A stretch of DNA of 64,000 nucleotides from Gracilimonas sediminicola (GTDB lineage Bacteria > Bacteroidota > Rhodothermia > Balneolales > Balneolaceae): NCBI RefSeq assembly GCF_024320785.1, contig NZ_JANDBC010000001.1, forward strand, positions 2,052,001 to 2,116,000. Direction: 5' to 3'. Under the pieces are notes generated by a model that was not told the origin of the DNA, made no database searches, and was given only the letters and a program-made list of their open reading frames with translations. Position numbers and translations under genes: made by a program. Position 1 is the stretch's first letter. The number at the start of each line of letters is the position of its first letter. Positions 14,220-39,348 of this stretch are shown here, one piece after another.

Positions 14220-14243
14220 TGATGATGTGTTTTGGTGTAATAA

Positions 14244-14295
14244 GTGTTAAGGTGTTTACGTGTTTATGTTGGAATACACGTAAACACCTTAACAC
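14244..14295. repeat. Intergenic inverted repeat, permease gap 1
   Basis: A perfect 20-bp stem (14244-14263 with 14276-14295, GTGTTAAGGTGTTTACGTGT and its complement) with a 12-nt loop lies between the 14310 permease gene and the ATPase gene. It has no T-run. Confidence 0.85.
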
Positions 14296-14309
14296 GTTAC
14301 AACGTTAGG

Positions 14310-16775: not shown

Positions 16776-16799
16776 GATGTAAAGTGTTTAAGTGGTGAG

Positions 16800-16843
16800 G
16801 TGTGAACGTGTTTACGTTGGGTCGCACGTAAACACGTTCACAC
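16800..16843. repeat. Intergenic inverted repeat, permease gap 2
   Basis: A perfect 18-bp stem (16800-16817 with 16826-16843) with loop TGGGTCGC. The arms are TGTGAACGTGTTTACGT-like and differ from gap 1, but they are fully complementary to each other. Confidence 0.85.
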
Positions 16844-16857
16844 GTTACAACGTAAGA

Positions 16858-19311: not shown

Positions 19312-19337
19312 GGTGTAATAAGTGTTTAGGTGTTATA

Positions 19338-19373
19338 GTGTTTACGTGTTTAAGTTGGGTCGCACGTAAACAC
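19338..19373. repeat. Intergenic inverted repeat, permease gap 3
   Basis: An 11-bp perfect stem (GTGTTTACGTG with CACGTAAACAC) with a 14-nt loop, embedded in about 80 bases that are nearly identical to the 21.8 kb gap. Confidence 0.8.
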
Positions 19374-19395
19374 ATTCACACATTACAACGTTAGG

Positions 19396-21813: not shown

Positions 21814-21839
21814 GGTGTAATAAGTGTTTGGGTGTTATA

Positions 21840-21875
21840 GTGTTTACGTGTTTATGTTGGGTCGCACGTAAACAC
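21840..21875. repeat. Intergenic inverted repeat, permease gap 4
   Basis: An 11-bp perfect stem (21840-21850 with 21865-21875). The whole gap is almost the same as the one at 19.3 kb. Confidence 0.8.
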
Positions 21876-21897
21876 ATTCACACATTACAACGTTAGG

Positions 21898-24300
21898 TTA
21901 TTCACTTCTTAAACTTTTTACGGGGTTGGTTACCGAAGCTTTTATAGACTGGGAGCTAACTGTCAGCAAACTGATAATAAAGACTCCCAAGCCGGCTAAA
22001 ACGAAAATTCCTATCCCAAGATCAGTGCGATAAGCAAAGTTCTCAAGCCAGTTGTTTACTAAAATCCAGCTGACGGGAATTGCCATCAAAAAGGCTATGA
22101 CCACCAGCTTCATGAAGTCGGTAGTTAAAAGCATAAGAATTTGAGGTGTGGTGGCTCCAAGTGTTTTTCGGATTCCGATTTCTTTTACTCGCCGTTGAGT
22201 ACTGAACAAAGCCAGGCCAAATAGGCCAAGGCAGGCAATAAAGATGGTAACTCCACCTCCGATGGCAAATAGCCTGCCAGCACGCACATCCGTCTGATAC
22301 ATTTGTTCAATCTGTTGTTCCAGAAAATGGTATTCCATTGCTGATGCAGGGTCAAACTGGCCGTGAATCTCTTTTAGCCCTTGTAAAGTTGATGGTACAT
22401 CCACATTGGCAGCCAGTTTTACAGAAAAGTAATCGATTGATCGAACCGGGTTGGCCCAGTATCCAATTAATAGCGGCGCCACTTGTTGATGGAGTGATTG
22501 GTAATTAAAGTCTTTAACCACACCTACTACCCGTACAGGTTCGCCAACTCCGGATAGCCGTAAGGTTTTACCCAGGGGTTCATCCAAGTTCAAAGCATTG
22601 ACAGCGGTTTCGTTAAGCAAGACAGTGAGGGAATCGGTTAACTTATTGCCGGTGAAGTTTCTGCCGGAAACCAACTCGATGTTGTAGAGCTGCAACATAT
22701 CCTCATCAAAACTCATGAAGAACGTCTGAACAGAATCTGCCATGCCGGTTTCTCCGGACCGGGCAAAGATCTGGGTGATATTCTTCCATTCACCCGGTAC
22801 CCGGGAGGAGACCGCGACATCTTGCACGCCGGGAAGTTTTGCCATCTCCTGCTTTATGGCATCAAAACGAGCTCGGGTATTTCCGCTGTTGATATCAACA
22901 ACGAGCATCTGGTCTTCCTCAAAACCAATGTCAGCCGTTCGGATATAGTCAATTTGTTTGTAAGCAGCCAGTGTGCCAATTATCAAAATGATCGACAAGC
23001 TGAACTGTGTTATGACCAGCGCTTTACGGAGTGTAAGGCTTGTCCCTTTCATTTCGGTATTGGACTTTAACACCCGGATGGGTTTTATCAAAGCAAGGTA
23101 GAACGCCGGGTAGCTGCCGGAAGAGATTCCAAGTAGCAAGCCTATGCCAAGCAATACCATTGCAATATATGCGAACGAATCGGTGGTAATGCTAAAACTT
23201 TTTCCTGTAAGCTGATTGAAAGAGGGAAGCAACAGTTCAATTAAAAAGTAAGAACCTAAACAAGCCAGCAGGGCAATAACGATTGATTCTAACAAGAACT
23301 GACCGATAAGCTGTCTCTTTTCCGCTCCTGCGGCCTTTCTTATACCGATTTCTTTGCCACGCTGCACAGAAAGAGCAGTTGCAAGGTTCATATAATTGAT
23401 GCCTGCGATGAGCAATAAGAAAACGCCAATTGCTGAGAACACATAGATATAGAAAATGTTACCGTGAGCTTGCTCGATACCGAATTCAATATTCTGAGAG
23501 TTGAAATAAATATCCGTAATAGGCTGGAGGTAGAAATTGCGGGCATTCTCGTTGGTTTCCTGCTGGTTTTGGATAAAGCTATCCAGCTTTGATTCTAAGG
23601 ACGTCATATTCACGGACTCTTCCAGCAACAGGTAGGTGTAGGCACCATAGTTGTTCCAATCTGTGAGATATTCCTCCATGTCGGTATTCGAATTTCTTCT
23701 CGAGAAAAGTAAATCAAACTGAAGGTGAGAGTTATCCGGAACGTTCTTTATCACTGCGGTTACGGTATTATCGCCCAAATTACTGAAGGTCAGAACTTCA
23801 CCAATAGGGTTTTGATTTCCGAAAAGCTGCTGTGCTTTTTTCTCTGAAATCACGACTGTGTTAGGCTCTGATAAGGGGCTGTTTTTGTCTCCTTCAACTA
23901 TTTCAAAATCAAATACCTCAAAAAAATCAGGATCTGTCATCAGCCAATTACGCTCAGAAATGGCCTCCCCTTTCCACTCCATATCTACATGCCCCACAGG
24001 CTGATATACTCTCACCATCTTTTTAATTTCAGGGAAGCTTTCTTCCAATGTTGAGCCAAGTACCGGCGCGGTCTGTCCATAGTACCGGGTTCTCTGATCC
24101 TGACTATCATCGATTTCGACAATGCGATAGATCTGCTCCGATTGCTCATGAAGGGAGTCGTAACCAAGCTCATTATCAACATATAAATACAGCAGTGTGG
24201 CTCCGGTAATACCTACGGTAAGCCCCAAAATGCTGATGATTCCAAAAACTTTGTTCCGGTGAAGGTTTCGAATGGCAATTTTGAAGTAGTTTTTTAACAT
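21898..24300 (-). CDS. MacB/FtsX-type ABC permease (array member 2)
   Basis: The protein has 800 residues and begins MLKNYFKIAIRNLHRNKVFG, slightly diverged from the other members. Coupling segments are KEIGIRKAAGA (about 315) and KEIGIRKTLGA (about 705). It ends NPVKSLRSE. The region after the third coupling span has the usual lipoprotein-exporter-like hydrophobic pattern. The gap downstream (toward 21897) is a near copy of the one at 19.3 kb, consistent with duplication of gene plus gap as a unit. Confidence 0.9.
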   Translation of the reverse strand: MLKNYFKIAIRNLHRNKVFGIISILGLTVGITGATLLYLYVDNELGYDSLHEQSEQIYRIVEIDDSQDQRTRYYGQTAPVLGSTLEESFPEIKKMVRVYQPVGHVDMEWKGEAISERNWLMTDPDFFEVFDFEIVEGDKNSPLSEPNTVVISEKKAQQLFGNQNPIGEVLTFSNLGDNTVTAVIKNVPDNSHLQFDLLFSRRNSNTDMEEYLTDWNNYGAYTYLLLEESVNMTSLESKLDSFIQNQQETNENARNFYLQPITDIYFNSQNIEFGIEQAHGNIFYIYVFSAIGVFLLLIAGINYMNLATALSVQRGKEIGIRKAAGAEKRQLIGQFLLESIVIALLACLGSYFLIELLLPSFNQLTGKSFSITTDSFAYIAMVLLGIGLLLGISSGSYPAFYLALIKPIRVLKSNTEMKGTSLTLRKALVITQFSLSIILIIGTLAAYKQIDYIRTADIGFEEDQMLVVDINSGNTRARFDAIKQEMAKLPGVQDVAVSSRVPGEWKNITQIFARSGETGMADSVQTFFMSFDEDMLQLYNIELVSGRNFTGNKLTDSLTVLLNETAVNALNLDEPLGKTLRLSGVGEPVRVVGVVKDFNYQSLHQQVAPLLIGYWANPVRSIDYFSVKLAANVDVPSTLQGLKEIHGQFDPASAMEYHFLEQQIEQMYQTDVRAGRLFAIGGGVTIFIACLGLFGLALFSTQRRVKEIGIRKTLGATTPQILMLLTTDFMKLVVIAFLMAIPVSWILVNNWLENFAYRTDLGIGIFVLAGLGVFIISLLTVSSQSIKASVTNPVKSLRSE

Positions 24301-24326
24301 GATGTAATAAGTGTTTGTGTGTTGCA

Positions 24327-24362
24327 GTGTTTACGTGTTTATGTTGGGTCGCACGTAAACAC
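24327..24362. repeat. Intergenic inverted repeat, permease gap 5
   Basis: An 11-bp perfect stem (24327-24337 with 24352-24362), the same words as gaps 3 and 4 with a shorter right flank. Confidence 0.8.
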
Positions 24363-24372
24363 GTTCACACGG

Positions 24373-26757
24373 TTATTCACTTCTTAAACTTTTTACAGGG
24401 TTTGCGAGTGCTGCTTTTATTGTTTGATACGAAATAGTACTTATGGCGATTACAAGAGAAACGAAACCGGCCAGCAGGAACACCCACCACGGGATAGGGA
24501 CACGGTAGGCAAATTCCTGCAGCCAGTTTTGAATTGCGAAATAACATATGGGAATGCTTATCAGGAAAGCGATCCCGACCAGGAGTGAGAATTCCGAAGA
24601 AAGCAACCAGGTAATTTGCGAGGCCTTCGCTCCAAGTATTTTTCGTACTCCAATTTCTTTACTACGGCGCTGAATCATATAGGTGATTAGACCATATAAG
24701 CCCATGCAGGCGACTATAATGGTTAAAATGGTAAAGACAGTTAGCAGCTTTAGAAAGCGCTGATCGGCCTGGTATAATTGATTGAGATGCTCATCAAGGA
24801 AAACGAAGCTAAAGGGGAAATCCGGGACCGCGCTTTTCCAGCTTTCCTGTAAGGAGGCAACAGCTTGAGAAAGGTTGCCGGGTTGTAACCGGACAAATAC
24901 TTTTTCCATGTTGGTTGGTGGAATGTACATGACCAGCGGCTGTATTTGACGGTGTAAGGAAGCAAAGTGGAAATCTTCAGCAACACCAATCACGTATCCG
25001 TCCTTAATGTCGCTTACTCTGAGTTCTTTGCCAATGGGATTATCCCAACCCAGCGTTTTAGCAGCCGATTGGTTGATGACGATACCGTCAGCAGAGTCGG
25101 TGGCAAAAGAAGGATCAAACGAACGTCCCTCAGCCATTTTGATATCCATTGTTTCGAAATAATCGAAATGCACACCGTAGATGTTCATGGGATATCCTTC
25201 AGGGTCATCCCCCGGAGGGAAAACAGGAACCGTTCCGTTTCTTCCATCCAGTAAGCCGGCTCCTAAACTGGCATTTATAACATGGCGGTTTTGCTGTAAT
25301 TCATTTTTAATGGTTGGAAATCTGCGGGTCAGCTCCTCACCATTCATGTGCAAAACGACAACCTGCTCTTCATTAAACCCCAGGTCTTTGGATTGAATGA
25401 ATTGAATTTGGTTTCGGATGATTAAACTTCCCGCAATAAGTACAATGGCGATCACAAACTGACCCACAACCAATATCTTTCGGATGGAGAACACCGAACT
25501 GCCGGTTTCTATCGAGCCTTTTAAAGCTTTTGAGGGACGAAAGTTTGAAATCATGAACGAGGGATAGAACCCTGCCAGTACTCCGACAATTACCGAAAGC
25601 GCTAAAAAGGTCGGAACCAGGTAAAGGTAGCTTCCAGCTTCCAGACTTAATTCCATACCTAATAACGAAGATGCGGCTTGTAATACCGGTTCAAGAAAAA
25701 GTAAGGCTATGCAGATACTCAATAGCGTGAGTAATACCGATTCAAAGATAAATTGCCCCATCAGGGAAGTACGTTTAGCACCTAAGGTTTTGCGGACGCC
25801 TACTTCTTTACCTCTCCGGATGGCCTGAGCTGTTGAAAGGTTCATGTAATTAAAGCAGGCGATAATCAGTAGAAAGAGGGCGATAGCTGACAGCCCGAAA
25901 ATATAGGCCCGGTTACCAACCCGCATATCTTCAGAAGCATTTCTGAGGTTTGAGGCGAGGTAGATTTCATCAAGGGGCTGCAGGTGTAAAATCCGGTTCT
26001 CACCGATATCTTCTCCCATGTTGGTGACCAGAAAATCGTCAAAATGGGCAGCTACTTGTTCAGGGTCAGCCTGTTGCGATAATTTCACGTAGGTGTAGAA
26101 AGAAACCCATCCCCAGCTGTCAAGAGTAACGGGATAACCACGGGGAACCTCAAAAGTGTCGAAGGAGATAATAAAATCGAAATTGAGGTGAGTATTAGGG
26201 GGAATTTCTTCAAATACTCCTGTAACTGTTAACGGGATTTGATTATCCAAAAGCAAAGTCTTGTCCATCGGGTCTTCATCTCCAAAATACTTTTGGGCCA
26301 TTGGAGCGGTTATAACAACAGAATTAATGTCTTTTAGTGCCTTGGCTGGATTGCCTTGAGAAAGAGGGAAATCGAAAATGCTTAACAAGGTAGAGTCGGC
26401 GTAGGCTACATTGTATTCATAAAACTGACGGTTTTTGTAGCTGAGAATGTTGGAGTCAGGGAATCGCAATCGCACGGCTTGTTCAATCTCAGGAAAACTC
26501 TCAACTAAAGCAGGTCCCATAGGAGGCGAAGTAGTAGCAAAATGCCGGGCACCGGGACGGTTTATTTCCTGGAATGTAAGCCGGTAAATCTGATTCGCAT
26601 TGGTATGGAAATTATCTACACTCAGCTCTGCACGGACAAACAAAAAAATTACTATGCAGCAAAGAAGAGCCACACTCAGCCCGAAAATATTGATGATCGA
26701 ATTTTCTTTATTTCTGTAGAAATTTCGAAAGGCTATTTTAAAGTAATTCTTCAGCAT
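24373..26757 (-). CDS. MacB/FtsX-type ABC permease (array member 1, promoter-proximal)
   Basis: The protein has 794 residues and begins MLKNYFKIAFRNFYRNKENS. Coupling segments are KEVGVRKTLGA (about 315) and KEIGVRKILGA (about 699). It ends NPVKSLRSE. It is the first gene of the array: upstream lie a 22-bp hairpin, a sigma-54-like promoter (26851-26869) and palindrome block B (26921-26957). The predicted leader of about 85 nt therefore contains the hairpin. Transcription would continue through four more permeases to the ATPase at 13527. Confidence 0.9.
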   Translation of the reverse strand: MLKNYFKIAFRNFYRNKENSIINIFGLSVALLCCIVIFLFVRAELSVDNFHTNANQIYRLTFQEINRPGARHFATTSPPMGPALVESFPEIEQAVRLRFPDSNILSYKNRQFYEYNVAYADSTLLSIFDFPLSQGNPAKALKDINSVVITAPMAQKYFGDEDPMDKTLLLDNQIPLTVTGVFEEIPPNTHLNFDFIISFDTFEVPRGYPVTLDSWGWVSFYTYVKLSQQADPEQVAAHFDDFLVTNMGEDIGENRILHLQPLDEIYLASNLRNASEDMRVGNRAYIFGLSAIALFLLIIACFNYMNLSTAQAIRRGKEVGVRKTLGAKRTSLMGQFIFESVLLTLLSICIALLFLEPVLQAASSLLGMELSLEAGSYLYLVPTFLALSVIVGVLAGFYPSFMISNFRPSKALKGSIETGSSVFSIRKILVVGQFVIAIVLIAGSLIIRNQIQFIQSKDLGFNEEQVVVLHMNGEELTRRFPTIKNELQQNRHVINASLGAGLLDGRNGTVPVFPPGDDPEGYPMNIYGVHFDYFETMDIKMAEGRSFDPSFATDSADGIVINQSAAKTLGWDNPIGKELRVSDIKDGYVIGVAEDFHFASLHRQIQPLVMYIPPTNMEKVFVRLQPGNLSQAVASLQESWKSAVPDFPFSFVFLDEHLNQLYQADQRFLKLLTVFTILTIIVACMGLYGLITYMIQRRSKEIGVRKILGAKASQITWLLSSEFSLLVGIAFLISIPICYFAIQNWLQEFAYRVPIPWWVFLLAGFVSLVIAISTISYQTIKAALANPVKSLRSE

Positions 26758-26774
26758 GGTATAAAGTTTCTATG

Positions 26775-26832
26775 TGTGAACGTGTTTAAGTGTTTATGCA
26801 CGTTCGCACCTAAACACTTAAACACGTTCACA
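26775..26832. repeat. Leader inverted repeat of the permease array
   Basis: A perfect 22-bp stem (26775-26796 with 26811-26832) with a 14-nt loop. It lies between the predicted sigma-54 start and the first permease ATG, so it would form in the mRNA leader. Confidence 0.85.
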
Positions 26833-26850
26833 ACTAATTATACACTGGGT

Positions 26851-26869
26851 AATCAACTATCATACCAAA
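26851..26869 (-). promoter_or_regulatory. Predicted sigma-54 promoter of the five-permease array
   Basis: On the minus strand the sequence is TTTGGTATGATAGTTGATT, with GG and GA separated by exactly 10 bases. It resembles the adaptor-operon promoter at 36241 (same TTGAT end). Its -24 GG is about 62 bp from the nearer palindrome of block B. Confidence 0.65.
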
Positions 26870-26920
26870 CCGGGAAAAGATCTTTAAAACAGCGTTTAGG
26901 ACATTTTTGAGGGTATTACA

Positions 26921-26957
26921 TGTTCACTTTCAAACACCGGGTGTGCGATTATGGACA
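26921..26957. promoter_or_regulatory. Paired 16-bp imperfect palindromes (enhancer block B)
   Basis: TGTTCACTTTCAAACA (26921-26936) and TGTGCGATTATGGACA (26942-26957) start 21 bp apart. The second site matches block A in 15 of 16 positions. Confidence 0.7.
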
Positions 26958-26970
26958 GTGAGGTTAGCTC

Positions 26971-27030
26971 AGCTATCAGGCTTCAGCTTTTAGTTTAAAT
27001 CCATAGAGAATAAACTGAAAGCTGATAGCT
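26971..27030. repeat. Inverted repeat after the 27030 permease gene
   Basis: AGCTATCAG (26971-26979) pairs with CTGATAGCT (27022-27030), and AGTTTA pairs with TAAACT inside. It overlaps the stop of the permease gene and has no T-run. Confidence 0.65.
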
Positions 27031-29381
27031 TATTCACTCTTCAGGCTCTGTACCGGATTTTCCAGGGCTGCTTTTATGGATTGCCAACTTACCGTCAGCC
27101 AGGCGATTACCACTGCAAGGAAACCGGAGGCGGCAAATATCCACCAGTTCAGGCCCGGGTTGTAAGCGAAATCGGAGAGCCATATGTCCATCATCCACCA
27201 CGAAACCGGGATGGCAATAGCAATGGCGATCAGCACCAGCTTGGTGAAGTCTTTGGTGAGATGGAGCACCAGGTTTTGAACTGAAGCTCCCAACACTTTT
27301 CGAACCCCAATTTCTTTGGCGCGCTGCTCGGCTGTGAATGCTGAAAGACCGAAAAGTCCCAGGCAGGAGATGATAATGGCAAAGATGGAGAAATATTTGG
27401 CCAGGTCGCCAATTCGTTGTTCTCCCCGGTATAAGGCCGCATATTGCTCATCCATAAATTCATAAGCAAAAGGATAAGTGGGGTTGAATTCTTTGTATTT
27501 GTCTTCGATCTGCGCCAGTGTCTCGCGAATGTTATCCGATTCAACTCTTACGTAAGCTGCCCAGCCAAAGTCGGTAAGCCGGAAGAAAAGAGGTTCGACT
27601 TCGTACCGCAGGTTCTGGAAATGAAAGTCTTTAACAAGGCCGATGATCTCGGTGTCTTCTTCCCAGAGCTGAATTACCTGCCCAACAGGATTTTCAAGGT
27701 CCATTACCTTGGCTGCTGTTTCATTAATCACAATTCGGGCCGTATCGGCGCCAAATTCTTCAGAATGAGAACGTCCGGCAAGAAGCTCAAAACCCATGGT
27801 TTCAATGAGTCCGTAATCTGCACTTACATTCTCGAATAAAATATGGGTATCAGGTAATTTACCGGGCCATTCCAACCCGGATGTATTGGAATTTCTACCC
27901 ATAAACGAAGAGCTGGATCGGGATGCATTAACGACGCCCGGAATATCCTTTACCTGGGCTTTAAAGGTGTCCCAATTATCATAGACGTCACCTTCAACAG
28001 GGAAGGTGATAAGGTTTTCCTTCTTATACCCGAGGTTTTTGGTCTGGGTAAACTGAATTTGCTGGTACACCACAATGGTAGAAATAATCAGGATAACAGA
28101 TAGCGAGAACTGGAATACCACCAGGCCTTTCCGGGCAAAAGCTTCACTGCCTGAAATTTTCAGGTTTCCTTTCAGCGTTTTAACAGCTTCGAAAGAGGAG
28201 AGATAAAAGGCCGGATAGCTACCCGCCACAAACCCGGTTACCAATGCGGTTCCAAGAAATATGAGCAGCAGCATCGGATCTGAATAGGAAACATCGATGG
28301 CCTTATCCGTCAGGTCGTTAAATACAGGTAAGCTCAATTCAACAAGAAATACGGAAACCAACAGGGAGAAAAAAGTGATGATCATGGATTCACCGATAAA
28401 CTGTCCGATGAGAGAACCCTGACTGGCCCCGATTGATTTTCGAATGCCCACTTCTTTGGCACGTTTGGTGGCTTTGGCTGTACTCAGGTTCATAAAGTTA
28501 ATGCAGGCAATCAGCAAAATGAAAATGGCAACGATGGTAAATAACCTCACGTAATCGATTCTGCCACCTGTTTGCACACCGTCTTCAAATTGGCCATAGA
28601 GGTACAAATCAGCAAAGGGGAAAACAAAGAGGTTCACATTCGAGTCATCATCATCTTTTTGTTTTACGAAGTCCTTTATTTTTGAATTCAAAGCGGCAAT
28701 ATCAACACCCGGGTATAGCTTGGCAATGGTTCGGGGGCCGTTATTTCCCCATCGGGTTGCCCATTCATTATTCTGCAGCCAATCCTCAAAGGGAAGCACG
28801 TAATCAAATTGGAAAGAGGAGTTTTCGGGAAGTTTTTCAAATACGCCGGTGATAGTATGAACCTCCGTCCCGTTGATGGTAATAGATTCACCTACCGGAT
28901 TTTCTGTATTGAAATATTTCTCTGCCAGCTCTTTGGAAATAGCCACACTTTTGGGGCTGTTGATGAGCTCGTCCCGGTTTCCATGCAATATGTTGACATC
29001 CAGAATGTGGAAGAAGTCAGGCCGGGCGTATAGCCCATTTTCCTTGAGCGACTTATCATCTTTGGTAAACAGGTATTCCATATTCCAGGTATAAGTGGCC
29101 ACATACTCAAACTCGGGGACTTCCTCTTTCAAAGCAGGAGCCAAAATTCCCGGTGTGGAATGGGTTGTCATGATATCGCCGGAATATAGCTGGTGCTCCA
29201 TTACCTGGTACATGCGGTCGGAATCGGTGTGAAAGCGATCGTAATTCAACTCATCAAGTACCCAAAGCAGAATCAGGATACTGCAGGCCATCCCAATGGA
29301 TAACCCGATGACGTTAATGAGAAAAGAACTTTTATGACGCTTGAAACTCCGAAAAGCAGTTTTTAAATAATTTTTGAACAT
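27030..29381 (-). CDS. MacB/FtsX-type ABC permease (between the two operons)
   Basis: The 783-residue protein is the shortest permease here. It begins MFKNYLKTAFRSFKRHKSSF, distinct from the MLKNYFKIA group. Coupling segments are KEVGIRKSIGA (about 307) and KEIGVRKVLGA (about 687). It ends NPVQSLKSE. I saw no palindrome block or sigma-54-like element directly upstream. It may be transcribed by read-through from the adaptor operon or from its own undetected promoter. A hairpin in its leader region (29442-29498) separates it from the glycosidase-like gene. Confidence 0.9.
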   Translation of the reverse strand: MFKNYLKTAFRSFKRHKSSFLINVIGLSIGMACSILILLWVLDELNYDRFHTDSDRMYQVMEHQLYSGDIMTTHSTPGILAPALKEEVPEFEYVATYTWNMEYLFTKDDKSLKENGLYARPDFFHILDVNILHGNRDELINSPKSVAISKELAEKYFNTENPVGESITINGTEVHTITGVFEKLPENSSFQFDYVLPFEDWLQNNEWATRWGNNGPRTIAKLYPGVDIAALNSKIKDFVKQKDDDDSNVNLFVFPFADLYLYGQFEDGVQTGGRIDYVRLFTIVAIFILLIACINFMNLSTAKATKRAKEVGIRKSIGASQGSLIGQFIGESMIITFFSLLVSVFLVELSLPVFNDLTDKAIDVSYSDPMLLLIFLGTALVTGFVAGSYPAFYLSSFEAVKTLKGNLKISGSEAFARKGLVVFQFSLSVILIISTIVVYQQIQFTQTKNLGYKKENLITFPVEGDVYDNWDTFKAQVKDIPGVVNASRSSSSFMGRNSNTSGLEWPGKLPDTHILFENVSADYGLIETMGFELLAGRSHSEEFGADTARIVINETAAKVMDLENPVGQVIQLWEEDTEIIGLVKDFHFQNLRYEVEPLFFRLTDFGWAAYVRVESDNIRETLAQIEDKYKEFNPTYPFAYEFMDEQYAALYRGEQRIGDLAKYFSIFAIIISCLGLFGLSAFTAEQRAKEIGVRKVLGASVQNLVLHLTKDFTKLVLIAIAIAIPVSWWMMDIWLSDFAYNPGLNWWIFAASGFLAVVIAWLTVSWQSIKAALENPVQSLKSE

Positions 29382-31259: not shown

Positions 31260-33641
31260 CTATTCACTTCTCAAACTATCCACGGGATTAGCCACGGCGG
31301 CTTTGATGGATTGCCAGCTTACGGTCAAAATCGCGATAATCATCGCAATCAGTCCTACGGTTATAAAAACAGCAACATTCATATCAATACGGTAGGCAAA
31401 GTTGGTAAGCCACTGATCCATTACGTACCAGGCGATGGGCGTTCCCACCACAAAACCGATAGCCACTAATTTGAGGAAGTCGGTTGAAAGCAAAGCCACT
31501 ATTTTTGAGACGGAAGCACCCAACACTTTTCGAATTCCAATTTCTTTTGCCCGGCGTTCAATCAGGAAGGATGAAAGCCCTACAAGGCCAAGACAGGCGA
31601 TGAAAATAGCCAGCCCGGAAAATGCCAGTAACAGGTTTCGGGTCTGCAGTTCAGACTGGTAGAGAGCATTCAGCTGTTGATCTAAAAACTCGAATTCAAA
31701 AGGCCGGTGTGGGGCAACATCCTGCCACATATTCTCCAGAGATGCTATCGTGCCCTGGATGTTTCCCGGTTCAACTTTCACTAACAGGTAGTTATACATC
31801 TGCTCATGAATGAATAACGCCAGGGGCTCTACATTTTCTCTGAGAGACTGGTAGTTAAAGTCTGCCATCACCCCAACCACCTCGCCTTCTCTTCCTCCCA
31901 GTACATTGAAAGGCTTGCCAATGGCTTCCTGTGGCGACCAGCCATGAGCCTGCGCTAACTGCTCGTTGATGAGATACACATATCCCTGTTCTCTGGTATA
32001 GGAAGGATTATCCGGAAAAGAGTTACCAGCAATGATCTCAATATCTAATGTTTGAACCAAATCGGCATCAGCTGCACCGGCTGCAGTTCCGATCGGTTCC
32101 ATCGTAGTGTTGTGAACCGACCCATAGCCGCCAAAAACTTTACCGGGAATATTTGACATGTAGGTTGCTCCTTTAACACCGGGCTGACGGAGAACCTCAC
32201 TTTTCAGCAGACCCTGTTTTTGAGCAAGCTCACTATCTCTGGCAGGGAGCACAATAACTTCTTCATCATCAAAACCAAGGTCTGCAGTTAATATGAAATT
32301 TGTTTGTTGATAGATGATGACGGTACAAAGAATAAGGAAAGTGGATATAGCAAATTGTGATATCACCAGCCCTTTGCGAAGGGTACCATCGGACCCGGTA
32401 GACCCAAGCAGCCCCTTAAGTACCCGAACCGGCTGATATGATGAAAGTAGAAAAGCCGGGTAGCTTCCGGCGAGGGCAGCGGTGATGATGGTCACGCCGG
32501 CTAAAAGCATCCATGCGGAAGGATCGGTAAAAAGGTTAAAGCTGATGTCTTTGCCCATCAGTTCGAAAAAGGGTTCTTTGAAAAACTCCACCAGAATCAG
32601 TGCCAATACAACTGATATAAGCGTAATCAATATAGATTCCCCATAAAACTGCTTTACCAGTTGTGATTTTACCGCACCGAGAGCCTTTCGGATACCCACT
32701 TCAGCTCCACGCCTTGAAGAACGGGCGGTTGAGAGGTTGACGTAATTTATAGTAGCGATAAGGAGTACCATCAGGGCCAGGAAAATAAACCCAATCACGT
32801 TTTGCATACTGCCCATGGGGGCAATTTCGAAATCGAAGTTTGAGTTCAGGTACAATTCTGTGACGGGGGTAAAGATCAGTTGATCAACACGGTCCTGAAT
32901 CTGATTATCCCTTATGAAGGCATTTGCTGTCTGTCTTAATGATTCGGTGGAGGAGCTGCTATTCAGTAGCAGATAAGTGAAAAAATTAGCGGCCCTGATC
33001 TGAGAATCATCCAGCTGAGACCAACTGCTCATGGTATGCAGCGAGCCCAGATAATTGAATGTAAAGTGGGAGTTTGCAGGAACGTTTTCAATGACGCCGG
33101 TCACTTCAAAATCATAATTGGTATTGAAAATCCGGGCATTAACAGTTTCACCAAGTATATCAACAGACCCAAATAATTTCAGGGCTGTAGATTTGGGCAG
33201 AACCAATGATCTTGGGTTTTTGAGTGCTGTTTCGGGGTTTCCGGCGATAAAATCAAAACTGAAAATCCGGAAAAAGCTGGAATCGGCATATAAGAAGTTT
33301 TCTTCCTGAAATTTGTTCTCACCGGTACTAATGATAGCCGGGCTGTAACGGGTAGGCTCATAAAGCCGAACCCATCGTTCAATCTCTGGTGAGATTTGAT
33401 TCAGCGTTGGAGCCACCATGGAAGGCGTAACGGCGATGTTATCACCACCGCTTTCCATACTGATCCGAACAATTCTGTCTGCCTTTTCATGGAATTGGTC
33501 ATAACTGAGTTCATGCCTCACATATATGAGGATTAGCAGACAGCAAGCAATGCCTATTGCCAGCCCCGAAATATTGATGAAAGAATAGCCTTTATGCTTA
33601 GAGATATTTCTAAAGGCAATTTTAAAATAATTCTTCAGCAT
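31260..33641 (-). CDS. MacB/FtsX-type ABC permease of the adaptor operon
   Basis: The protein has 793 residues and begins MLKNYFKIAFRNISKHKGYS. Coupling segments are AEVGIRKALGA (about 312) and KEIGIRKVLGA (about 698). It ends NPVDSLRSE. It is the permease encoded immediately after its own ATPase (33719) and downstream of the adaptor gene (34935), so it is the best candidate for the core of a complete MacAB-like tripartite pump. The outer-membrane channel is not in the window. Confidence 0.92.
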   Translation of the reverse strand: MLKNYFKIAFRNISKHKGYSFINISGLAIGIACCLLILIYVRHELSYDQFHEKADRIVRISMESGGDNIAVTPSMVAPTLNQISPEIERWVRLYEPTRYSPAIISTGENKFQEENFLYADSSFFRIFSFDFIAGNPETALKNPRSLVLPKSTALKLFGSVDILGETVNARIFNTNYDFEVTGVIENVPANSHFTFNYLGSLHTMSSWSQLDDSQIRAANFFTYLLLNSSSSTESLRQTANAFIRDNQIQDRVDQLIFTPVTELYLNSNFDFEIAPMGSMQNVIGFIFLALMVLLIATINYVNLSTARSSRRGAEVGIRKALGAVKSQLVKQFYGESILITLISVVLALILVEFFKEPFFELMGKDISFNLFTDPSAWMLLAGVTIITAALAGSYPAFLLSSYQPVRVLKGLLGSTGSDGTLRKGLVISQFAISTFLILCTVIIYQQTNFILTADLGFDDEEVIVLPARDSELAQKQGLLKSEVLRQPGVKGATYMSNIPGKVFGGYGSVHNTTMEPIGTAAGAADADLVQTLDIEIIAGNSFPDNPSYTREQGYVYLINEQLAQAHGWSPQEAIGKPFNVLGGREGEVVGVMADFNYQSLRENVEPLALFIHEQMYNYLLVKVEPGNIQGTIASLENMWQDVAPHRPFEFEFLDQQLNALYQSELQTRNLLLAFSGLAIFIACLGLVGLSSFLIERRAKEIGIRKVLGASVSKIVALLSTDFLKLVAIGFVVGTPIAWYVMDQWLTNFAYRIDMNVAVFITVGLIAMIIAILTVSWQSIKAAVANPVDSLRSE

Positions 33642-33665
33642 AGTGTAATGGGTTTAGGTGCTAAA

Positions 33666-33702
33666 GTGTTTAAGTGAGTTCTTTTCGTTAACACTTAAAC
33701 AC
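33666..33702. repeat. Intergenic inverted repeat between ATPase and permease genes
   Basis: GTGTTTAAGTG (33666-33676) pairs perfectly with CACTTAAACAC (33692-33702), with a 15-nt loop. Confidence 0.8.
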
Positions 33703-33718
33703 GCTCACACGTTAATAA

Positions 33719-34408
33719 TCATACATGAAACCCTTCCTGCATATTCTCGGTCACTACGTGGCCGTCAAACAGGTGAATGACACGACGGGCGTAATCGGCA
33801 TCATGCGGAGAGTGGGTTACCATCACGATGGTGGTGCCGGCTTCGTTAAGTTCAGCCAAAAGTTTCATCACTTCATCGCCGTGATCCGAATCCAGGTTAC
33901 CGGTAGGCTCATCGGCGAGGATCAGCTTGGCATTAGCTACTACGGCCCGGGCAATGGCAACGCGCTGTTGCTGACCACCGGAAAGTTGTTGCGGAAAGTG
34001 ATTGCGTCGGTGCATCATTCCCATTCGGTCGAGCGCCGTTTCCACTTTCTCTTTGCGTTCGGCGGAATCAACTCCGAGATATAGCAGCGGAAGTTCCACA
34101 TTTTCGAATACCGTGAGCTCATCAATCAGGTTAAAGCTCTGGAAGATGAATCCAATATTTCCTTTTCTGAGCTGGGCTCTTTCTCTTTCGGAATGAGTAG
34201 AGATCTCATGTCCTAAAAAGTGATATTCACCATCGGAAGGATTATCCAGGAGTCCCATAATATTCAACAGGGTAGATTTTCCGCAGCCTGAAGGCCCCAT
34301 AATGGCTACAAATTCGCCCTCCTTGATCTCGAGGTTCACGTTGCTCAACGCAGTCGTTTCCACTTCTTCAGTGGTATATACTTTCTTAAGGTTTTTTGTT
34401 TGAATCAT
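33719..34408 (-). CDS. ABC transporter ATPase (MacB/LolD-type) of the adaptor operon
   Basis: The protein has 229 residues with fully canonical motifs: Walker A GPSGCGKST (38-46), Q-loop FIFQSFNL, signature LSGGQQQRVAIARA (142-155), Walker B LILADE (162-167), D-loop NLDS and switch His in VTHSPHD. It aligns without gaps to the 13527 ATPase, so the differences there stand out. It presumably powers the permease at 31260. Its ATG is 41 bases downstream of the four-helix-bundle gene. Confidence 0.95.
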   Translation of the reverse strand: MIQTKNLKKVYTTEEVETTALSNVNLEIKEGEFVAIMGPSGCGKSTLLNIMGLLDNPSDGEYHFLGHEISTHSERERAQLRKGNIGFIFQSFNLIDELTVFENVELPLLYLGVDSAERKEKVETALDRMGMMHRRNHFPQQLSGGQQQRVAIARAVVANAKLILADEPTGNLDSDHGDEVMKLLAELNEAGTTIVMVTHSPHDADYARRVIHLFDGHVVTENMQEGFHV

Positions 34409-34449: not shown

Positions 34450-34881
34450 TCAGTGACCTAAATACTCATCTGAGATGTATAGAACTTCTGGTTCGTTTGT
34501 TTGATTTGAGTTTTTCAAAGTGTTATTAATATGATTTATCAAAGAGAGCACCATAGCTTGGCAGTGGTCACAATTATTTTGAATTTCTTTAATCCTTTCC
34601 GTTTCAATCATTCCTTGATCTTCAACAATGTATAGTAGACTCTTTACTTCCTGGGCTGAACTTTGGGAGTAGTCTAAGAATCGAATAAAGTCTTTTTTAT
34701 GGTAGCGATTGAAGCCCTCTGCAATATTTGTCATCACAGATATAGAAGCCCTTTTCAGCTGATCAGTTAGTGCAAATTCTTTCTTCAATGAGGAATCAGA
34801 GACCAATTTATAGATTTGGTTCACCAACAATCTTGATTGCTGCCAGCACTTTAAATCCTCATATCTTTCAATTTTACTCAT
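34450..34881 (-). CDS. Four-helix-bundle protein (S23 / 23S rRNA intervening-sequence family)
   Basis: The 143-residue, entirely helical protein has the family features YEDLKCWQQSRLLVNQIY, LTDQLKRASISVMTNIAEGF, KKDFIRFLDYSQSSAQEVKSLL. Its founding members are encoded in insertions of 23S rRNA genes, but most, like this one, are free-standing and of unknown function. It sits inside an efflux operon between the adaptor and the ATPase genes, with no rRNA nearby. The unusual context suggests it was inserted into the operon; I see no direct evidence that it takes part in transport. Confidence 0.88.
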   Translation of the reverse strand: MSKIERYEDLKCWQQSRLLVNQIYKLVSDSSLKKEFALTDQLKRASISVMTNIAEGFNRYHKKDFIRFLDYSQSSAQEVKSLLYIVEDQGMIETERIKEIQNNCDHCQAMVLSLINHINNTLKNSNQTNEPEVLYISDEYLGH

Positions 34882-34934: not shown

Positions 34935-36191
34935 TCACTCTAACACTAAAACCTCATTATCCCCAAACGTATCATAACTTGAGGTAATGACTTTTTCTCC
35001 GGGCGATACTCCGCTCAGTACTTCAAAATATTCAGGATTCTGCCGGCCGAGCCTTATATCTCTGCGATAGGCCTTTCCTTCACTTTCATTTACAACAAAT
35101 ACCCAGTTGCCACCGGTAGTTTGATAGAACCCACCTCTTGGAATCTGAACCGCACTGGCCGATTCCCCCAGCTCAAGACGTATTCTCACTGTTTGTCCCC
35201 GGCGCAGGCCTTCCGGTGCTTTATTCACAAATTCCATATCCACTTCAAACTGCCCGTTGTTAATGACGGGATAAATTTTTGTAATCACCAGCTCGTGCGA
35301 CTGCCCGTCAAAAGGGAAAGAGCCCCGGAGCCCCTGCGTTATTCGCGATAAGTGATATTCATCAATCGCTACCCGAACTTTGTAACCGTCCATGATATCG
35401 ACTTGTCCGATACGCTCTCCGGAAGAAATGGACTGCCCCTGGTTTAATTCAATGGTGCTCAATTGACCCGAAATAGGTGCCGTAACGGATAGGTTATCCA
35501 GGATTTGCTGAACGGCTTCCAGATTCTGAAACATTCTGTCTTCGGAATTATTAAGCTGCCTCAGCTGCGTAATCGTTTGAATGGAATCCTTCTTATAGGA
35601 TTCGTAGGTCAATTCGTAGCGCCGTTTCTGATACTCATAATTCTCCTTTGTGGTCTGGAATTCTTGTTCAGAAATCAGATCCCGTTCAACCAGCTTTTTC
35701 TGACGATCATACTGCGACTTTAAAATTTCCATTTGGGATTTGGCACTTGCCAGCTGATCCTGAAGCTGCAGAGTATTCTGTTCCAGGTTTAATCTTGAGT
35801 TGCGCACGTTATTGATTTGATCGTAGAGCCCCGAAGTTTGCTGCATCACCTGAAGCTGCAGCCCGGAATTAGTGAGGGTCAGGATGGTATCGCCTTCCTC
35901 AACCATCGTTCCGGATTCAAGAAAAACTTCCTGCACCACGCCGCCTTCAATGGCATCAAGGTAGATGGTTTGAATAGGCTGAACCGTTCCCGTTACCTGT
36001 ATAAACTCCTGAAAGGTGTCTTCCTGTACGGTTGCGATGGTTAGTTTTTCTCTTTCCACATTCAACGTAGATCGCACATCCATAAACCAAAATGCATACA
36101 CGCTTAAGCTTGCAAAAGCGAGAACGCCTGCAATCATAAGGAAGCGTTTTAGCGTCCAGGTTTTCTTTTCAATTTTTCGATCCATTCCCAT
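34935..36191 (-). CDS. HlyD/RND-type periplasmic adaptor (membrane fusion protein)
   Basis: The protein has 418 residues. One N-terminal membrane span (about 15-35) is followed by a biotinyl-lipoyl half (IYLDAIEGGVVQEVFLESG), a long coiled-coil hairpin (about 110-225, including LQDQLASAKSQMEILKSQYD), the second lipoyl half (VTAPISGQLSTIELNQGQ), and a beta-barrel/membrane-proximal domain ending GDNEVLVLE. It would bridge permease and outer-membrane channel. First gene of the operon: a sigma-54-like promoter lies about 50 bases upstream of the ATG. A second ATG two codons in is also possible. Confidence 0.93.
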   Translation of the reverse strand: MGMDRKIEKKTWTLKRFLMIAGVLAFASLSVYAFWFMDVRSTLNVEREKLTIATVQEDTFQEFIQVTGTVQPIQTIYLDAIEGGVVQEVFLESGTMVEEGDTILTLTNSGLQLQVMQQTSGLYDQINNVRNSRLNLEQNTLQLQDQLASAKSQMEILKSQYDRQKKLVERDLISEQEFQTTKENYEYQKRRYELTYESYKKDSIQTITQLRQLNNSEDRMFQNLEAVQQILDNLSVTAPISGQLSTIELNQGQSISSGERIGQVDIMDGYKVRVAIDEYHLSRITQGLRGSFPFDGQSHELVITKIYPVINNGQFEVDMEFVNKAPEGLRRGQTVRIRLELGESASAVQIPRGGFYQTTGGNWVFVVNESEGKAYRRDIRLGRQNPEYFEVLSGVSPGEKVITSSYDTFGDNEVLVLE

Positions 36192-36240
36192 TCGTAAATG
36201 TCCTGCTGGTTTTTATGTAGTTAATTTTTGAAGTAGATAA

Positions 36241-36256
36241 TCAAGATACGTGCCAA
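36241..36256 (-). promoter_or_regulatory. Predicted sigma-54 promoter of the adaptor-ATPase-permease operon
   Basis: On the minus strand the sequence is TTGGCACGTATCTTGA, which matches TGGCACG-N4-TTGC in all but the last base. GG and GA are 10 bases apart. Its -24 GG (36253-36254) lies about 62 bp from the nearer palindrome. It is the best consensus match of the four promoters predicted here. Confidence 0.8.
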
Positions 36257-36308
36257 ATTAAATGAATGTGTGGTAAAAGGGAATTAAGGATGATTCTTTC
36301 CCGATTAA

Positions 36309-36345
36309 TGTTCACATTCCAACATCAGATGTTCGATATCGTACA
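36309..36345. promoter_or_regulatory. Paired 16-bp imperfect palindromes (enhancer block C), shared by divergent promoters
   Basis: TGTTCACATTCCAACA (36309-36324) and TGTTCGATATCGTACA (36330-36345) start 21 bp apart. The second is nearly a perfect palindrome (one mismatch pair). The block lies midway between the minus promoter at 36241 and the plus promoter at 36399. The rest of the 344-base gap (36192-36535) holds these promoters and the hairpin at 36421. Confidence 0.75.
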
Positions 36346-36398
36346 CTTCGATTGTGGAATTACGAGGATTAGACTATCTCAAAGGGTAAATGTTACAA

Positions 36399-36416
36399 CT
36401 GGTATGATATTAGCTA
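36399..36416 (+). promoter_or_regulatory. Predicted sigma-54 promoter of the regulator/kinase operon
   Basis: The sequence is CTGGTATGATATTAGCTA from 36400, with GG (36401-36402) and GC (36413-36414) separated by 10 bases. The -24 GG is about 63 bp from the centre of the nearer palindrome. The match is weaker than on the other side (TGGTATG, TAGC), so the call depends partly on the symmetry. Confidence 0.5.
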
Positions 36417-36420
36417 ATAA

Positions 36421-36510
36421 GTGTCAAAGTACTAAAGTGTTGAAGTGTTACTTTTTTGATTCTTGAATACGCAAACACCTTAACACTTTAACGCTTTAGC
36501 ACTTTAGCAC
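36421..36510. repeat. Leader inverted repeat of the regulator operon
   Basis: An imperfect 30-bp stem (36421-36450 with 36481-36510, about 26 of 30 paired plus wobbles) is built of AAGTGTT-like words. It lies in the predicted leader between the promoter at 36399 and the ATG at 36536. Confidence 0.7.
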
Positions 36511-36535
36511 TTCAACACAATCTCACATAAACTAA

Positions 36536-37909
36536 ATGAAGAAAACAGGCCGAATACTTGTAGTGGATGATGATACCGATGTGCTGAATGCAGCTCGTTT
36601 GTATTTAAAGCAGCATGTTGAAAAAGTGGATGTGGAAAGCAACCCTAAGCTGATTCCCTCGCTGATGAAAGAATATGATTACGATGCCATTTTGTTGGAT
36701 ATGAACTTCCATGAGGATGTGAGCAGCGGGGAAGAGGGTTTCTATTGGCTGGAGAAAATCCTGGAGATAGACCCGGCGATGGCCGTGGTGTTGATAACGG
36801 CTTATGGCGACGTAGAGAAAGCAGTTCTGGCAGTAAAAACAGGTGCCTCTGATTTTGTACTAAAGCCCTGGCAAAATGAAAAATTGCTGGCTACTGTCAC
36901 CTCGGCTATGAATCTGAGTCAGTCTAAAAGGGATTCTCAAAAACTGCGAACGCAAAATGCCGCGCTAAAAGCGGATATGGAACAGCCATATCAGAATATC
37001 ATTGGGAAAAGCCGGGCGATGGAGCAGGTGTTTCAAACCATTGAAAAAGTGGCAAAAACGGACGCCAACGTTTTGATTACCGGGGAGAACGGAACAGGAA
37101 AAGAACTGGTGGCCCGGGCGTTGCACAGGCGCTCAAACCGAAGTGAGAATGCTTTTATTACCGTTGATATGGGAGCTTTGCCAGAAGGCTTGTTCGAAAG
37201 TGAATTATTTGGCCACGAAAAGGGCGCCTTTACCGATGCCAAAGAATCACGGGCCGGCCGGTTCGAAATAGCCCATGGAGGAACGCTCTTTTTAGATGAA
37301 GTGGGAAACATACCGCTTCAGCTGCAGCCTAAGCTTTTATCTGCTTTGCAAACGCATGAGATTCGGAGAATTGGTTCCAACAAAACCACAAAAATTGATA
37401 TTCGGCTGATTTGTGCAACCAACGAAAGCTTAGGGGAGATGGTGGAGAAACAGGAATTTCGTCAGGACCTGCTTTACCGGATAAACACCATTGAGATTAA
37501 GCTGCCACCGCTCTGGGAGCGTACAGAAGACATTCCCTTGCTGGCTGAACACTTTTTGAAACAGTACAGATCGAAGTACAAAAAAGAAATCAAAGGGATC
37601 ACGGATCAGGCGTTGAATCACCTGAAAGAATACCACTGGCCGGGCAATATCCGGGAGCTGGAACACGCCGTTGAGCGGGCGGTTATTATGACGGACGAGG
37701 AGCAACTACAGAAGGGTGATTTCCTGCTTACCTCCGTTTCAGGTAACGATCATAAACTGCCGGTATCGGGGTTGAACCTGGAAGAAGTGGAAAAGACGGT
37801 GATTCGCAAAGCAATGGATAAACACGGCGGTAATATATCGCATGCAGCAGAAGAGTTGGGACTAACCCGTGCATCACTGTATCGAAGATTGGAGAAATAT
37901 GGACTGTAG
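36536..37909 (+). CDS. Sigma-54-dependent response regulator (NtrC family)
   Basis: The 457-residue protein has a receiver domain (1-about 125, phospho-acceptor Asp55 in AILLDMNFHE), an AAA+ domain with Walker A GENGTGKE (about 182) and the sigma-54-contact loop GAFTDA (about 228, a common variant of GAFTGA), Walker B GTLFLDEVGN, then a Fis-type helix-turn-helix (NISHAAEELGLTRASLYRR). Together these make an ATP-driven activator that opens sigma-54 promoters from upstream sites. It lies directly beside the histidine kinase gene and divergent from the adaptor operon. The palindromes at 36309 are the natural binding sites, implying autoregulation. Confidence 0.95.
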   Translation: MKKTGRILVVDDDTDVLNAARLYLKQHVEKVDVESNPKLIPSLMKEYDYDAILLDMNFHEDVSSGEEGFYWLEKILEIDPAMAVVLITAYGDVEKAVLAVKTGASDFVLKPWQNEKLLATVTSAMNLSQSKRDSQKLRTQNAALKADMEQPYQNIIGKSRAMEQVFQTIEKVAKTDANVLITGENGTGKELVARALHRRSNRSENAFITVDMGALPEGLFESELFGHEKGAFTDAKESRAGRFEIAHGGTLFLDEVGNIPLQLQPKLLSALQTHEIRRIGSNKTTKIDIRLICATNESLGEMVEKQEFRQDLLYRINTIEIKLPPLWERTEDIPLLAEHFLKQYRSKYKKEIKGITDQALNHLKEYHWPGNIRELEHAVERAVIMTDEEQLQKGDFLLTSVSGNDHKLPVSGLNLEEVEKTVIRKAMDKHGGNISHAAEELGLTRASLYRRLEKYGL

Positions 37910-37983: not shown

Positions 37984-39348
37984 ATGATTAAAAGCTTCCG
38001 ATTTGGAATCATACTACGCATTCTGATGCTGGCTGCAACCTTGCTGCTGGTGTGTTACCTGGTGCTCGAAACGGAGTACTACGTGAGCATGGTGATTCTG
38101 GGAGCCATCATTGCCGGGCAGGTAATTGCGTTGATAAAGTATCTGGAACGAACCAACGTATTACTCACCCGCTTTTTGGAGGCTATTCGATATTCAGATT
38201 TCACAGGAGCATTCAGAAATCACGGTTTGGGCAGTAACTTTGATGATTTAAATGCGGCTTTCAGTGATGTCATCGAAAAATTCAAAGAAGAGCGCAGCAA
38301 AAAAGAGGAAAGCATTCGATACCTGGAAACGGTGGTTCAGCACATCGGTATTGGCTTGGTTTGTTTTAATGGAAAAGGAGAGGTGGTTTTGTTGAATACC
38401 GCAGCCAAACGGCTGTTTAAAGTAGCGACCTTACGGACTCTGGATTCCCTTAAAAATATATCCGGGTCGCTCTATAAAACCGTAAAAAAACAGAAGGGAG
38501 GCAACCGAAGCCTGATTCGGGTGACTATCCAAAACGAAACGCTGCAGCTGGCGATGTATGCCACCGAGTTCAGGATGAGAGACGAAGCGTACAAGCTCGT
38601 TTCATTCCAGAACATTCATACCGAGCTGGAAGAAAAAGAGATGGAGGCCTGGCAAAACCTTACCCAGGTTTTGGCTCACGAAATTATGAACTCTATCACC
38701 CCGATTTCATCTCTTTCCGGCACGGTGAAAATGTTGCTGGAGGAGAATATGGTTCCGCAAGAACATCATGTAGAGCTGAATCAGGAAACCATTGAAGATG
38801 TGACCGATGCGTTGACGACCATAAGTAACCGAAGCCAGGGACTAATGCGATTTGTGAATTCTTACCGTGATTTTACCCAGATTCCGGAACCAAGCTATGA
38901 GCTTTTCAAGGTGAAAGAAGCGCTGGACCGAACCGCCAGCCTCATGAAGACAGAAGCCGCCAAAGAGGGCATACAAATCAAGGTAGAAGTAGATCCGGAA
39001 AGCCTGGAATTCACCGCTGATCCACACCTGGTTGAACAGGTGCTGATTAATCTGGTTAAGAATGCGATTCGGGTTTTGTCGGATCAGGAAGATGGGGTGA
39101 TTTTGATGAAGGGAGGGATAGAGGAATCAGGTAAAGTGATCATTCAAATTCAGGACAACGGTCCGGGTGTGAAGAAAGCTATGAAGGAGAAGATATTCAT
39201 CCCGTTTTATACGGTGGGTAGTAACGGGAAAAGTAAAGGATCAGGAATTGGGCTGAGCCTTTCCCGACAAATAATGCGCCTGCATGGCGGCAGCCTGATT
39301 TTGAATTCCGAAACCGGAAAAGGTTCAACTTTTACCTTGCGATTTTAA
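37984..39348 (+). CDS. Sensor histidine kinase, partner of the NtrC-type regulator
   Basis: The protein has 454 residues. Two N-terminal membrane spans (about 8-48) are separated by only a few residues, so there is hardly any periplasmic sensor. A HAMP-like linker, a PAS domain (about 120-215, VQHIGIGLVCFNGKGEVVLLN), the H box with His232 (LAHEIMNSITPISSL) and the ATPase domain follow (NLVKNAIRVL, QIQDNGPGV, GSGIGLSLS). The intramembrane or PAS-based architecture suggests sensing within the membrane, for example envelope or lipid state, though that is inference. The start is 74 bases after the regulator gene, in the same operon. Confidence 0.93.
   Translation: MIKSFRFGIILRILMLAATLLLVCYLVLETEYYVSMVILGAIIAGQVIALIKYLERTNVLLTRFLEAIRYSDFTGAFRNHGLGSNFDDLNAAFSDVIEKFKEERSKKEESIRYLETVVQHIGIGLVCFNGKGEVVLLNTAAKRLFKVATLRTLDSLKNISGSLYKTVKKQKGGNRSLIRVTIQNETLQLAMYATEFRMRDEAYKLVSFQNIHTELEEKEMEAWQNLTQVLAHEIMNSITPISSLSGTVKMLLEENMVPQEHHVELNQETIEDVTDALTTISNRSQGLMRFVNSYRDFTQIPEPSYELFKVKEALDRTASLMKTEAAKEGIQIKVEVDPESLEFTADPHLVEQVLINLVKNAIRVLSDQEDGVILMKGGIEESGKVIIQIQDNGPGVKKAMKEKIFIPFYTVGSNGKSKGSGIGLSLSRQIMRLHGGSLILNSETGKGSTFTLRF

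Follow-up and report, generated by a model that had tools for sequence, protein, structure and literature searches.

The intergenic region at 36192-36535 of the window (the entire 64,000-nucleotide stretch of Gracilimonas sediminicola DNA analysed here) is likely to be a bidirectional sigma-54 control element, in which a single enhancer-bound regulator would open both the operon of an exporter pump and its own operon, the latter amounting to positive autoregulation. As proposed, the sensor kinase would perceive a signal from the envelope or one related to the pump and phosphorylate the regulator, whose dimers would then occupy a pair of neighbouring 16-bp sites separated by two helical turns and build an AAA+ ring. 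Through DNA looping, this ring could touch the sigma-54 RNA polymerase at either of the two outward promoters (approximately 73 bp away on the side of the pump and 74 bp away on the side of the regulator and the kinase), and with both promoters opening, the pump operon would be activated and the activator would amplify itself. The binding, the looping, the transcription, the signal and the sign of the feedback are what we infer. For a class of exporters that is widespread across Bacteroidota, Balneolota, Ignavibacteriota and Acidobacteriota yet poorly studied, the model offers a predicted binding motif, promoter pair and autoregulatory wiring.

The region is the spacer between the minus-strand exporter operon and the plus-strand genes for the regulator and the kinase, in a genome that also encodes sigma-54 (PF04552, E 2.8e-55). 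The relatives of the window are Balneolaceae, with Balneola as a named close relative in the regulator tree. The genes are as follows.

31260..33641, minus strand: MacB/FtsX-type permease (ADOP/DarB-like)
33719..34408, minus strand: ABC ATPase of the pump (DarD/MacB-like)
34450..34881, minus strand: 23S_rRNA_IVP / four-helix-bundle gene, between the adaptor and ATPase genes
34935..36191, minus strand: periplasmic adaptor (HlyD/DarC-like), gene 1 of the pump operon
36536..37909, plus strand: response regulator with a receiver, a sigma-54 AAA+ domain with a GAFTDA loop, and a Fis-type HTH
37984..39348, plus strand: sensor kinase with two membrane helices and a very short connecting loop, from hydropathy

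No match at gathering scores was obtained when the window was scanned with Rfam. Farther along the minus strand (13527-29381) lie six successive genes of about 2.4 kb whose starts resemble permeases of the FtsX/MacB type (judged with Pfam for the last, 27030-29381, and by the first 40 residues for the others); this run adjoins a gene at 13527-14219 with an ABC ATPase-like start.

The elements of the spacer on which the model is built are these.

36241..36256, minus strand: sigma-54 promoter of the pump operon, TTGGCACGTATCTTGA
36309..36324, no strand assigned: enhancer site 1 (weaker), TGTTCACATTCCAACA
36318..36336, no strand assigned: inner palindrome TCCAACATC-A-GATGTTCGA, an inverted-repeat pair in the window
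36330..36345, no strand assigned: enhancer site 2 (strong), TGTTCGATATCGTACA
36400..36415, plus strand: sigma-54 promoter of the regulator operon, TGGTATGATATTAGCT

The first-pass annotation had placed its best-matching minus-strand promoter at 36241, and this site is found at 36256-36241, one mismatch away from TGGCACN5TTGC; the pump transcript is predicted to start near 36229, about 38 nt ahead of the adaptor ATG. By consensus alone TTGGCACGTATCTTGA is not significant, and a plain search of the window for TGGCACN5TTGC was uninformative, returning 45 matches at up to 2 mismatches versus a shuffle mean of 53.8. On the plus strand, a weaker site had been proposed at 36399; the site is real and is the weaker of the two, but its true start is 36400. 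It has the GG-N10-GC spacing, with TGGTAT at -24 and TAGC at -12, and scores 11.9 versus 17.1 for the pump side, with a matrix built from the sigma-54 consensus and loosened at -12 after the first 14 orthologs. The predicted start of the regulator-operon transcript is near 36425.

Between these promoters, the annotation had drawn a single enhancer block, block C, almost midway, about 62 and 63 bp from either promoter. This block is probably the inner palindrome at 36318-36336, which matches the quoted distances and joins site 1's right half to the left half of site 2. Its inner letters differ among orthologs, and the unit that is conserved is instead a pair of 16-bp sites with a spacing of exactly 21 bp, whose midpoint, 36327, coincides with the centre of the inner palindrome. 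Among all offsets within 60 bp of site 2, only -21, the position of site 1, stands out as an additional site (best offset besides 0, with a mean of 2.99 of 6 and a background of 1.6). From the midpoint, the GG elements at -24 are 73.0 bp away on the side of the pump and 74.0 bp away on the side of the regulator, so the claimed symmetry is real and the position of the block stands, while its definition gives way to the two 16-bp sites.

In the window's own 3.57-Mb genome, exact TGTTCGN4CGNACA occurs once. At up to one mismatch the palindrome has 28 matches versus 37 when the pattern is reversed as a control, and near-matches by themselves therefore carry no meaning. Surroundings were scored for 23 such places, and a sigma-54 score of at least 8.5 within 30-180 bp is seen for that of the window only, the best of the other 22 reaching 7.8, and thus further targets at up to one mismatch with such a score are not found among these 22. 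The comparative evidence for the enhancer is far stronger than these counts.

This evidence comes, in the first place, from the order, of which 128 genomes were searched and in 28 of which the regulator is present (E <=1e-150). Site 2 is found, with at most one mismatch, in all 28, and so is the site-1 16-mer, TGT-N10-ACA, also with at most one mismatch and exactly 21 bp from site 2. At score limits of 8.5 for the pump side and 7.5 for the regulator side, the latter within about 45-88 bp, the pump promoter is present in 28/28, at 81.5-84.5 bp, and the regulator-side promoter in 25/28, at 61.5-63.5 or 68.5-75.5 bp and in one case at 51.5 bp, the exceptions being L225, L226 and L229.

Beyond the order, genomes were scanned for orthologs, and of at least 571 relatives the best 80 (57-65% identity) were taken. 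Of these 80 loci, 19 were omitted because a cut contig or the lack of an adjoining pump left them with no pump gene in the nearest 700 bp; the 61 that remained, together with 14 orthologs from the order, make up 75 intergenic regions. The labels of the 80 include Bacteroidota, Balneolota, Ignavibacteriota, Acidobacteriota and Calditrichota, as well as Zixibacteria, KSB1, Cloacimonadota, Chlorobiota and Aminicenantes, though many of the cross-phylum orthologs are MAGs and some taxon labels are doubtful. In each region, the best palindrome outscores those of 99% or more of 200 shuffled versions, and site 2 is present with at most one mismatch to TGTNCGN4CGNACA in 69/75. A pump promoter scoring at least 8.5 at any distance is found in 72/75 and a regulator-side promoter in 29/75, with wrong-strand controls of 0 and 1 of 75; among the sites so counted are some at 61.5, 109.5 and 198.5 bp on the pump side and others at 49.5, 94.5 and 226.5 bp on the regulator side. 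At a score of 8.0, the pump side is positive at 71-99 bp in 70/75 regions versus a mean of 0.85 (maximum 5) in 60 rounds of shuffling, and the regulator side is positive at 60-76 bp in 26/75 versus 0.28 (maximum 2). The palindrome weights and both distance limits were fixed after inspection of the data, and the counts are from related sequences and not independent. At the level of genome comparison, the sites, both promoters, their spacing and the linkage to this regulator are demonstrated, and the two-way use of one enhancer, which the first-pass annotation had suggested, draws its support from the conservation of both promoters within the order and in other phyla. As a separate observation, pump promoters of these regions mostly have GA as their -12 dinucleotide in Balneolaceae, whose place is taken by GG in many Cytophagales and by GC in a number of deeper lineages (L075, L080, L087, L119, L124, L137).

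The distances themselves bear on one alternative. A ring that contacts one polymerase at a time would make the pump and the regulator compete instead of being co-induced, and the midway position of the enhancer, at 73.0 and 74.0 bp, would permit this, but the idea is purely conjectural and we consider it unlikely: equal distances are not generally maintained, as other regions have 72/83 or 73/84 bp. This 72-73/83-84 bp geometry is seen in L028 (Balneolota), L085 (Cytophagales-type) and L135 (Ignavibacteriales), while in the window's clade (73/74 bp) and in L090 (Chryseolinea, 72/72 bp) the plus side is about one helical turn shorter. Strict helical phasing was considered as a general rule and rejected, as L024 (68.5 bp) and L023 (70.5 bp) fall between the classes of 63 and 73 bp.

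The regulator-side arm of the enhancer differs between lineages. With a region labelled as positive when the regulator side scores at least 7.5 within 60-76 bp, and with sites elsewhere counted as none, a near regulator-side promoter is present in 30/75 regions and absent or displaced in 45/75, the regions from beyond the order again coming from the 80 best of at least 571 relatives. On the tree of the 75 regulators, the near arm is present in all 15 Balneolota, in 12/29 members of a Cytophagales-rich clade, in 3/9 of a deep mixed group, in 0/20 of a Bacteroidales/Cloacimonadota-type clade and in 0/2 of the rest, and the label needs at least 4 changes. Among the sites counted as none are those of Fulvivirga and a relative (105-118 bp), of Algoriphagus/Cognataquiflexum (about 127 bp) and of L137 (49.5 bp); the farther ones (105-127 bp) in the relatives of Fulvivirga and Algoriphagus are weaker GG-N10-G sites, and so part of the 45 arms may be displaced, not lost. 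As the near arm is absent or displaced in these 45 regions and in L225, L226 and L229, the module functions without a near regulator-side promoter, and judging from the sequences compared, such a promoter is a lineage option and not a requirement. A separate case is L225, in which about 600 bp separate the enhancer from the regulator (enhancer site at -601 from the regulator start) and in which a sigma-54-like TGGCACAACTATTGT near the regulator is possibly a relocated feedback promoter.

This variability could be taken to mean that the enhancer controls the pump side only, with a housekeeping promoter serving the regulator operon and the sigma-54-like site of the plus strand left as a relic. 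In its favour, the near site is missing in 45/75 regions, including all 20 of the Bacteroidales/Cloacimonadota type, and 6 of the 30 regions with the near arm, 2 of the 20 Bacteroidales-type regions and 1 of the 25 others have an exact housekeeping-type box, TANNTTTG, no more than 110 bp to the right of the enhancer. However, the plus-strand site is kept in 25/28 genomes of the order at tight distances amid surroundings that, by eye, have mostly diverged, regulator-side sites exceed the shuffled expectation by far (26/75 versus 0.28, in the same sample), and no plus-strand site scoring at least 7.5 overlaps an exact TANNTTTG box in any of the 75 regions. We thus judge this alternative improbable, somewhat more so than competition between the promoters. 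A housekeeping reading of the plus-strand sigma-54 site itself is unsupported, given this lack of overlap, and there is little to back the proposal that Bacteroidales-type regulators are transcribed from a housekeeping promoter next to the enhancer, with the exact box in 2/20 versus 6/30 and 1/25; a relaxed TANNTTTG-type box at 22-39 bp is found in 14/20 of the Bacteroidales-type regions, a count made without a control. It would be speculation that the sign of the feedback is reversed in these lineages through such a promoter.

The third alternative concerns the association of the element with this particular regulator. A composite pattern of promoter, spacer and palindrome has 20 matches in 19 genomes of the order, these being 19 of the 28 with the regulator and 0 of the 100 without it (Fisher p 3e-16, with kinship ignored and with the pattern derived from these same orthologs), and with the promoter reversed it matches 0/128 genomes. 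Eighteen of the 20 matches adjoin the regulator. The other two are about 10 kb (G013) and 22 kb (G078) away from it, and each of these distant copies of enhancer and pump-type promoter (L216, L219) precedes another FtsX/MacB-type permease gene, providing independent support for the pair serving such exporters; neither has a near plus-strand promoter. In G078 the distant copy is the sole exact match, as the regulator-side region deviates from the strict pattern. These copies are probably extra regulon members in the two relatives. While any dimer could in principle read a palindrome, it is thus very improbable that the palindromes serve a different regulator (a repressor or an activator) as its operator, with the adjacent response regulator acting elsewhere, given the linkage in 28/28, the absence of the composite pattern from the 100 genomes without the regulator, the near-fixed distance to sigma-54 promoters, the copies ahead of further permease genes, and the absence of the palindrome, at up to one mismatch, from the upstream 600 bp of 18/18 paralogous regulators (4/18 have it at 2 mismatches).

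Returning to co-activation of the two operons, with the pump promoter in 72/75 regions and the near regulator-side promoter in 30/75 and unevenly spread over the clades, the activation of the pump looks ancient and the positive-feedback arm lineage-specific. More tentatively, and with somewhat less than an even chance in our estimate, these modules (a GA/SFTDA regulator, an intramembrane-type kinase and an adaptor-ATPase-permease exporter) may form an ancient, phylum-spanning family of sigma-54 switches, in which the geometry between enhancer and pump is nearly frozen, and the self-activation arm has been acquired, lost or shifted by roughly one helical turn. If true, the feedback of one sensor-pump module would be an evolvable, lineage-specific setting, positive via sigma-54 in Balneolota and some Cytophagales and absent in Bacteroidales-type lineages. 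The natural series of arms present, absent and displaced would allow for a direct comparison of how positive autoregulation affects the induction of the pump.

As for the proteins, the regulator has the receiver (PF00072), the AAA+ sigma-54 activator (PF00158) and the Fis-type HTH (PF02954, HTH_8) domains, and in NCBIfam it groups with AtoC/ZraR/NtrC-type proteins at scores below the cut-offs. Among the 75 orthologs (14 from the order and 61 of the best 80 of at least 571 relatives), the recognition helix [TS]R[STA][SA]LYRR is present in all, and the sigma-54 contact loop is GAFTDA or GSFTDA in 74, versus GA/SFTGA in 18/18 paralogues. The helices of the window's kinase are placed, by hydropathy only, at 9-27 and 33-51, and in the best 80 of at least 571 loci the loop is of 15 residues or fewer in 69, with one helix called in 10 and no kinase in 1; such a two-helix, short-loop kinase resembles the intramembrane-sensing kinases. 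As to the unusual loop of the regulator, a point against co-activation, GAFTDA is listed as a tolerated variant in a portion of PMC4641369, which also lists DVU2106, a GAFTDA protein, with divergent operons, the title of a reference there speaking of co-regulation by sigma-54, while VfmH, also a GAFTDA protein, gave no sigma-54 pull-down according to a part of PMC10714721.

The leader of the regulator gene holds a further feature.

36419..36518, plus strand: inverted repeat of octamer-like units that would form an mRNA hairpin

The fold of 36426-36545 has -29 kcal/mol (z -5.6), with leaders elsewhere at -32.1 kcal/mol (z -6.4; L020) and -16.6 (z -2.8; L017). Two congeneric genomes (L018, L019) have a 23S_rRNA_IVP gene in the place of this repeat. 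Hairpins of octamer units (AACACTTT and variants), each directly ahead of a start codon, occur at seven places in the window (14240-14299, 16780-16847, 19326-19385, 21836-21887, 26778-26829, 33654-33678, 36419-36518), including several gaps of the permease-like run mentioned above, and a 17-base pattern of the unit has, at up to 3 mismatches, 93 matches in the genome versus 22 for the reversed control. The IVP gene of the window has its own peculiarities. Six of 13 relatives in the order (L148, L149, L151, L152, L158, L160) carry in the gap between adaptor and ATPase an IVP gene of the same family, about 30% identical and in the opposite orientation; this is so even in L148, where the pump genes on either side are 98-100% identical. 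In the wider sample, 6/80 loci (best 80 of at least 571; L068, L071, L095, L099, L132, L146) have such a gene in this gap, on the minus strand in five cases and on the plus strand in the sixth. These observations suggest repeated insertion or replacement at one spot. The 12 PF05635 loci of the own genome (L161-L172) have IVP genes bordered by mutually matching inverted arms that differ between loci, with p <=0.01 in 9/12 of these and in 5/14 loci elsewhere. The arms recall the stem-flanked intervening sequences of 23S rRNA described in part of PMC4990558; unlike those, the window's IVP gene sits inside a protein-coding operon.

Among the known systems, the DarBCD (darobactin exporter), MacAB and ADOP permeases are the nearest to the pump, whose adaptor, ATPase and permease match best the DarC, DarD, ADOP and DarB models of NCBIfam, all four below the curated cut-offs (for the equivalogs, DarC 231.7 of 450, DarD 279.7 of 375 and DarB 93.3 of 700 bits). 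Another likeness is to the modules of the BceRS-BceAB type, in which a kinase with two helices and a minimal loop is found beside an FtsX-type ABC exporter. The window shares this arrangement with them, but its regulator is a sigma-54 AAA+ protein and its exporter has an adaptor for the Gram-negative envelope. In terms of regulation, a close parallel is ZraR, whose loop is GAFTGA. The window's regulator is not ZraR, as it scores 368.7 bits against the 760-bit NCBIfam cut-off, and the ZraR target is a periplasmic chaperone while that of the window is an exporter, but the ZraR-type layout, two outward sigma-54 promoters flanking one enhancer, is found here at the level of sequence. In passages of PMC4987338 and PMC8249747, ZraR of E. 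coli and Salmonella is, like the window's regulator, a sigma-54 response regulator on divergent sigma-54 promoters, one for its own operon and one for an envelope-stress gene, in a single spacer, and it is tentatively called a conditional single-target regulator (PMC8249747). Another example is Desulfovibrio DVU2106, like the window's protein a GAFTDA activator with two divergent operons, which, by the cited title, sigma-54 and a cognate regulator control together; the relevant part of PMC4641369 lists it as a single-component regulator and the orange-protein operons under cell division, an unrelated target. Finally, sigma-54 control has been predicted for the COG0577 FtsX-like permeases of Bacteroidia, gamma-Proteobacteria and Opitutia (PMC12316311, 2025); this survey is one of statistical enrichment and, in the portions of it at hand, names no enhancer site or regulator for these permeases, neither 'divergent' nor 'Balneol' occurring in its main text. 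A literature search, with most subscription journals outside its coverage, found no paper on this enhancer or geometry. Overall, the regulatory logic is already known, from ZraR acting on zraP/zraSR and from Desulfovibrio DVU2106, while the motif, the geometry and the depth of conservation appear to be new.
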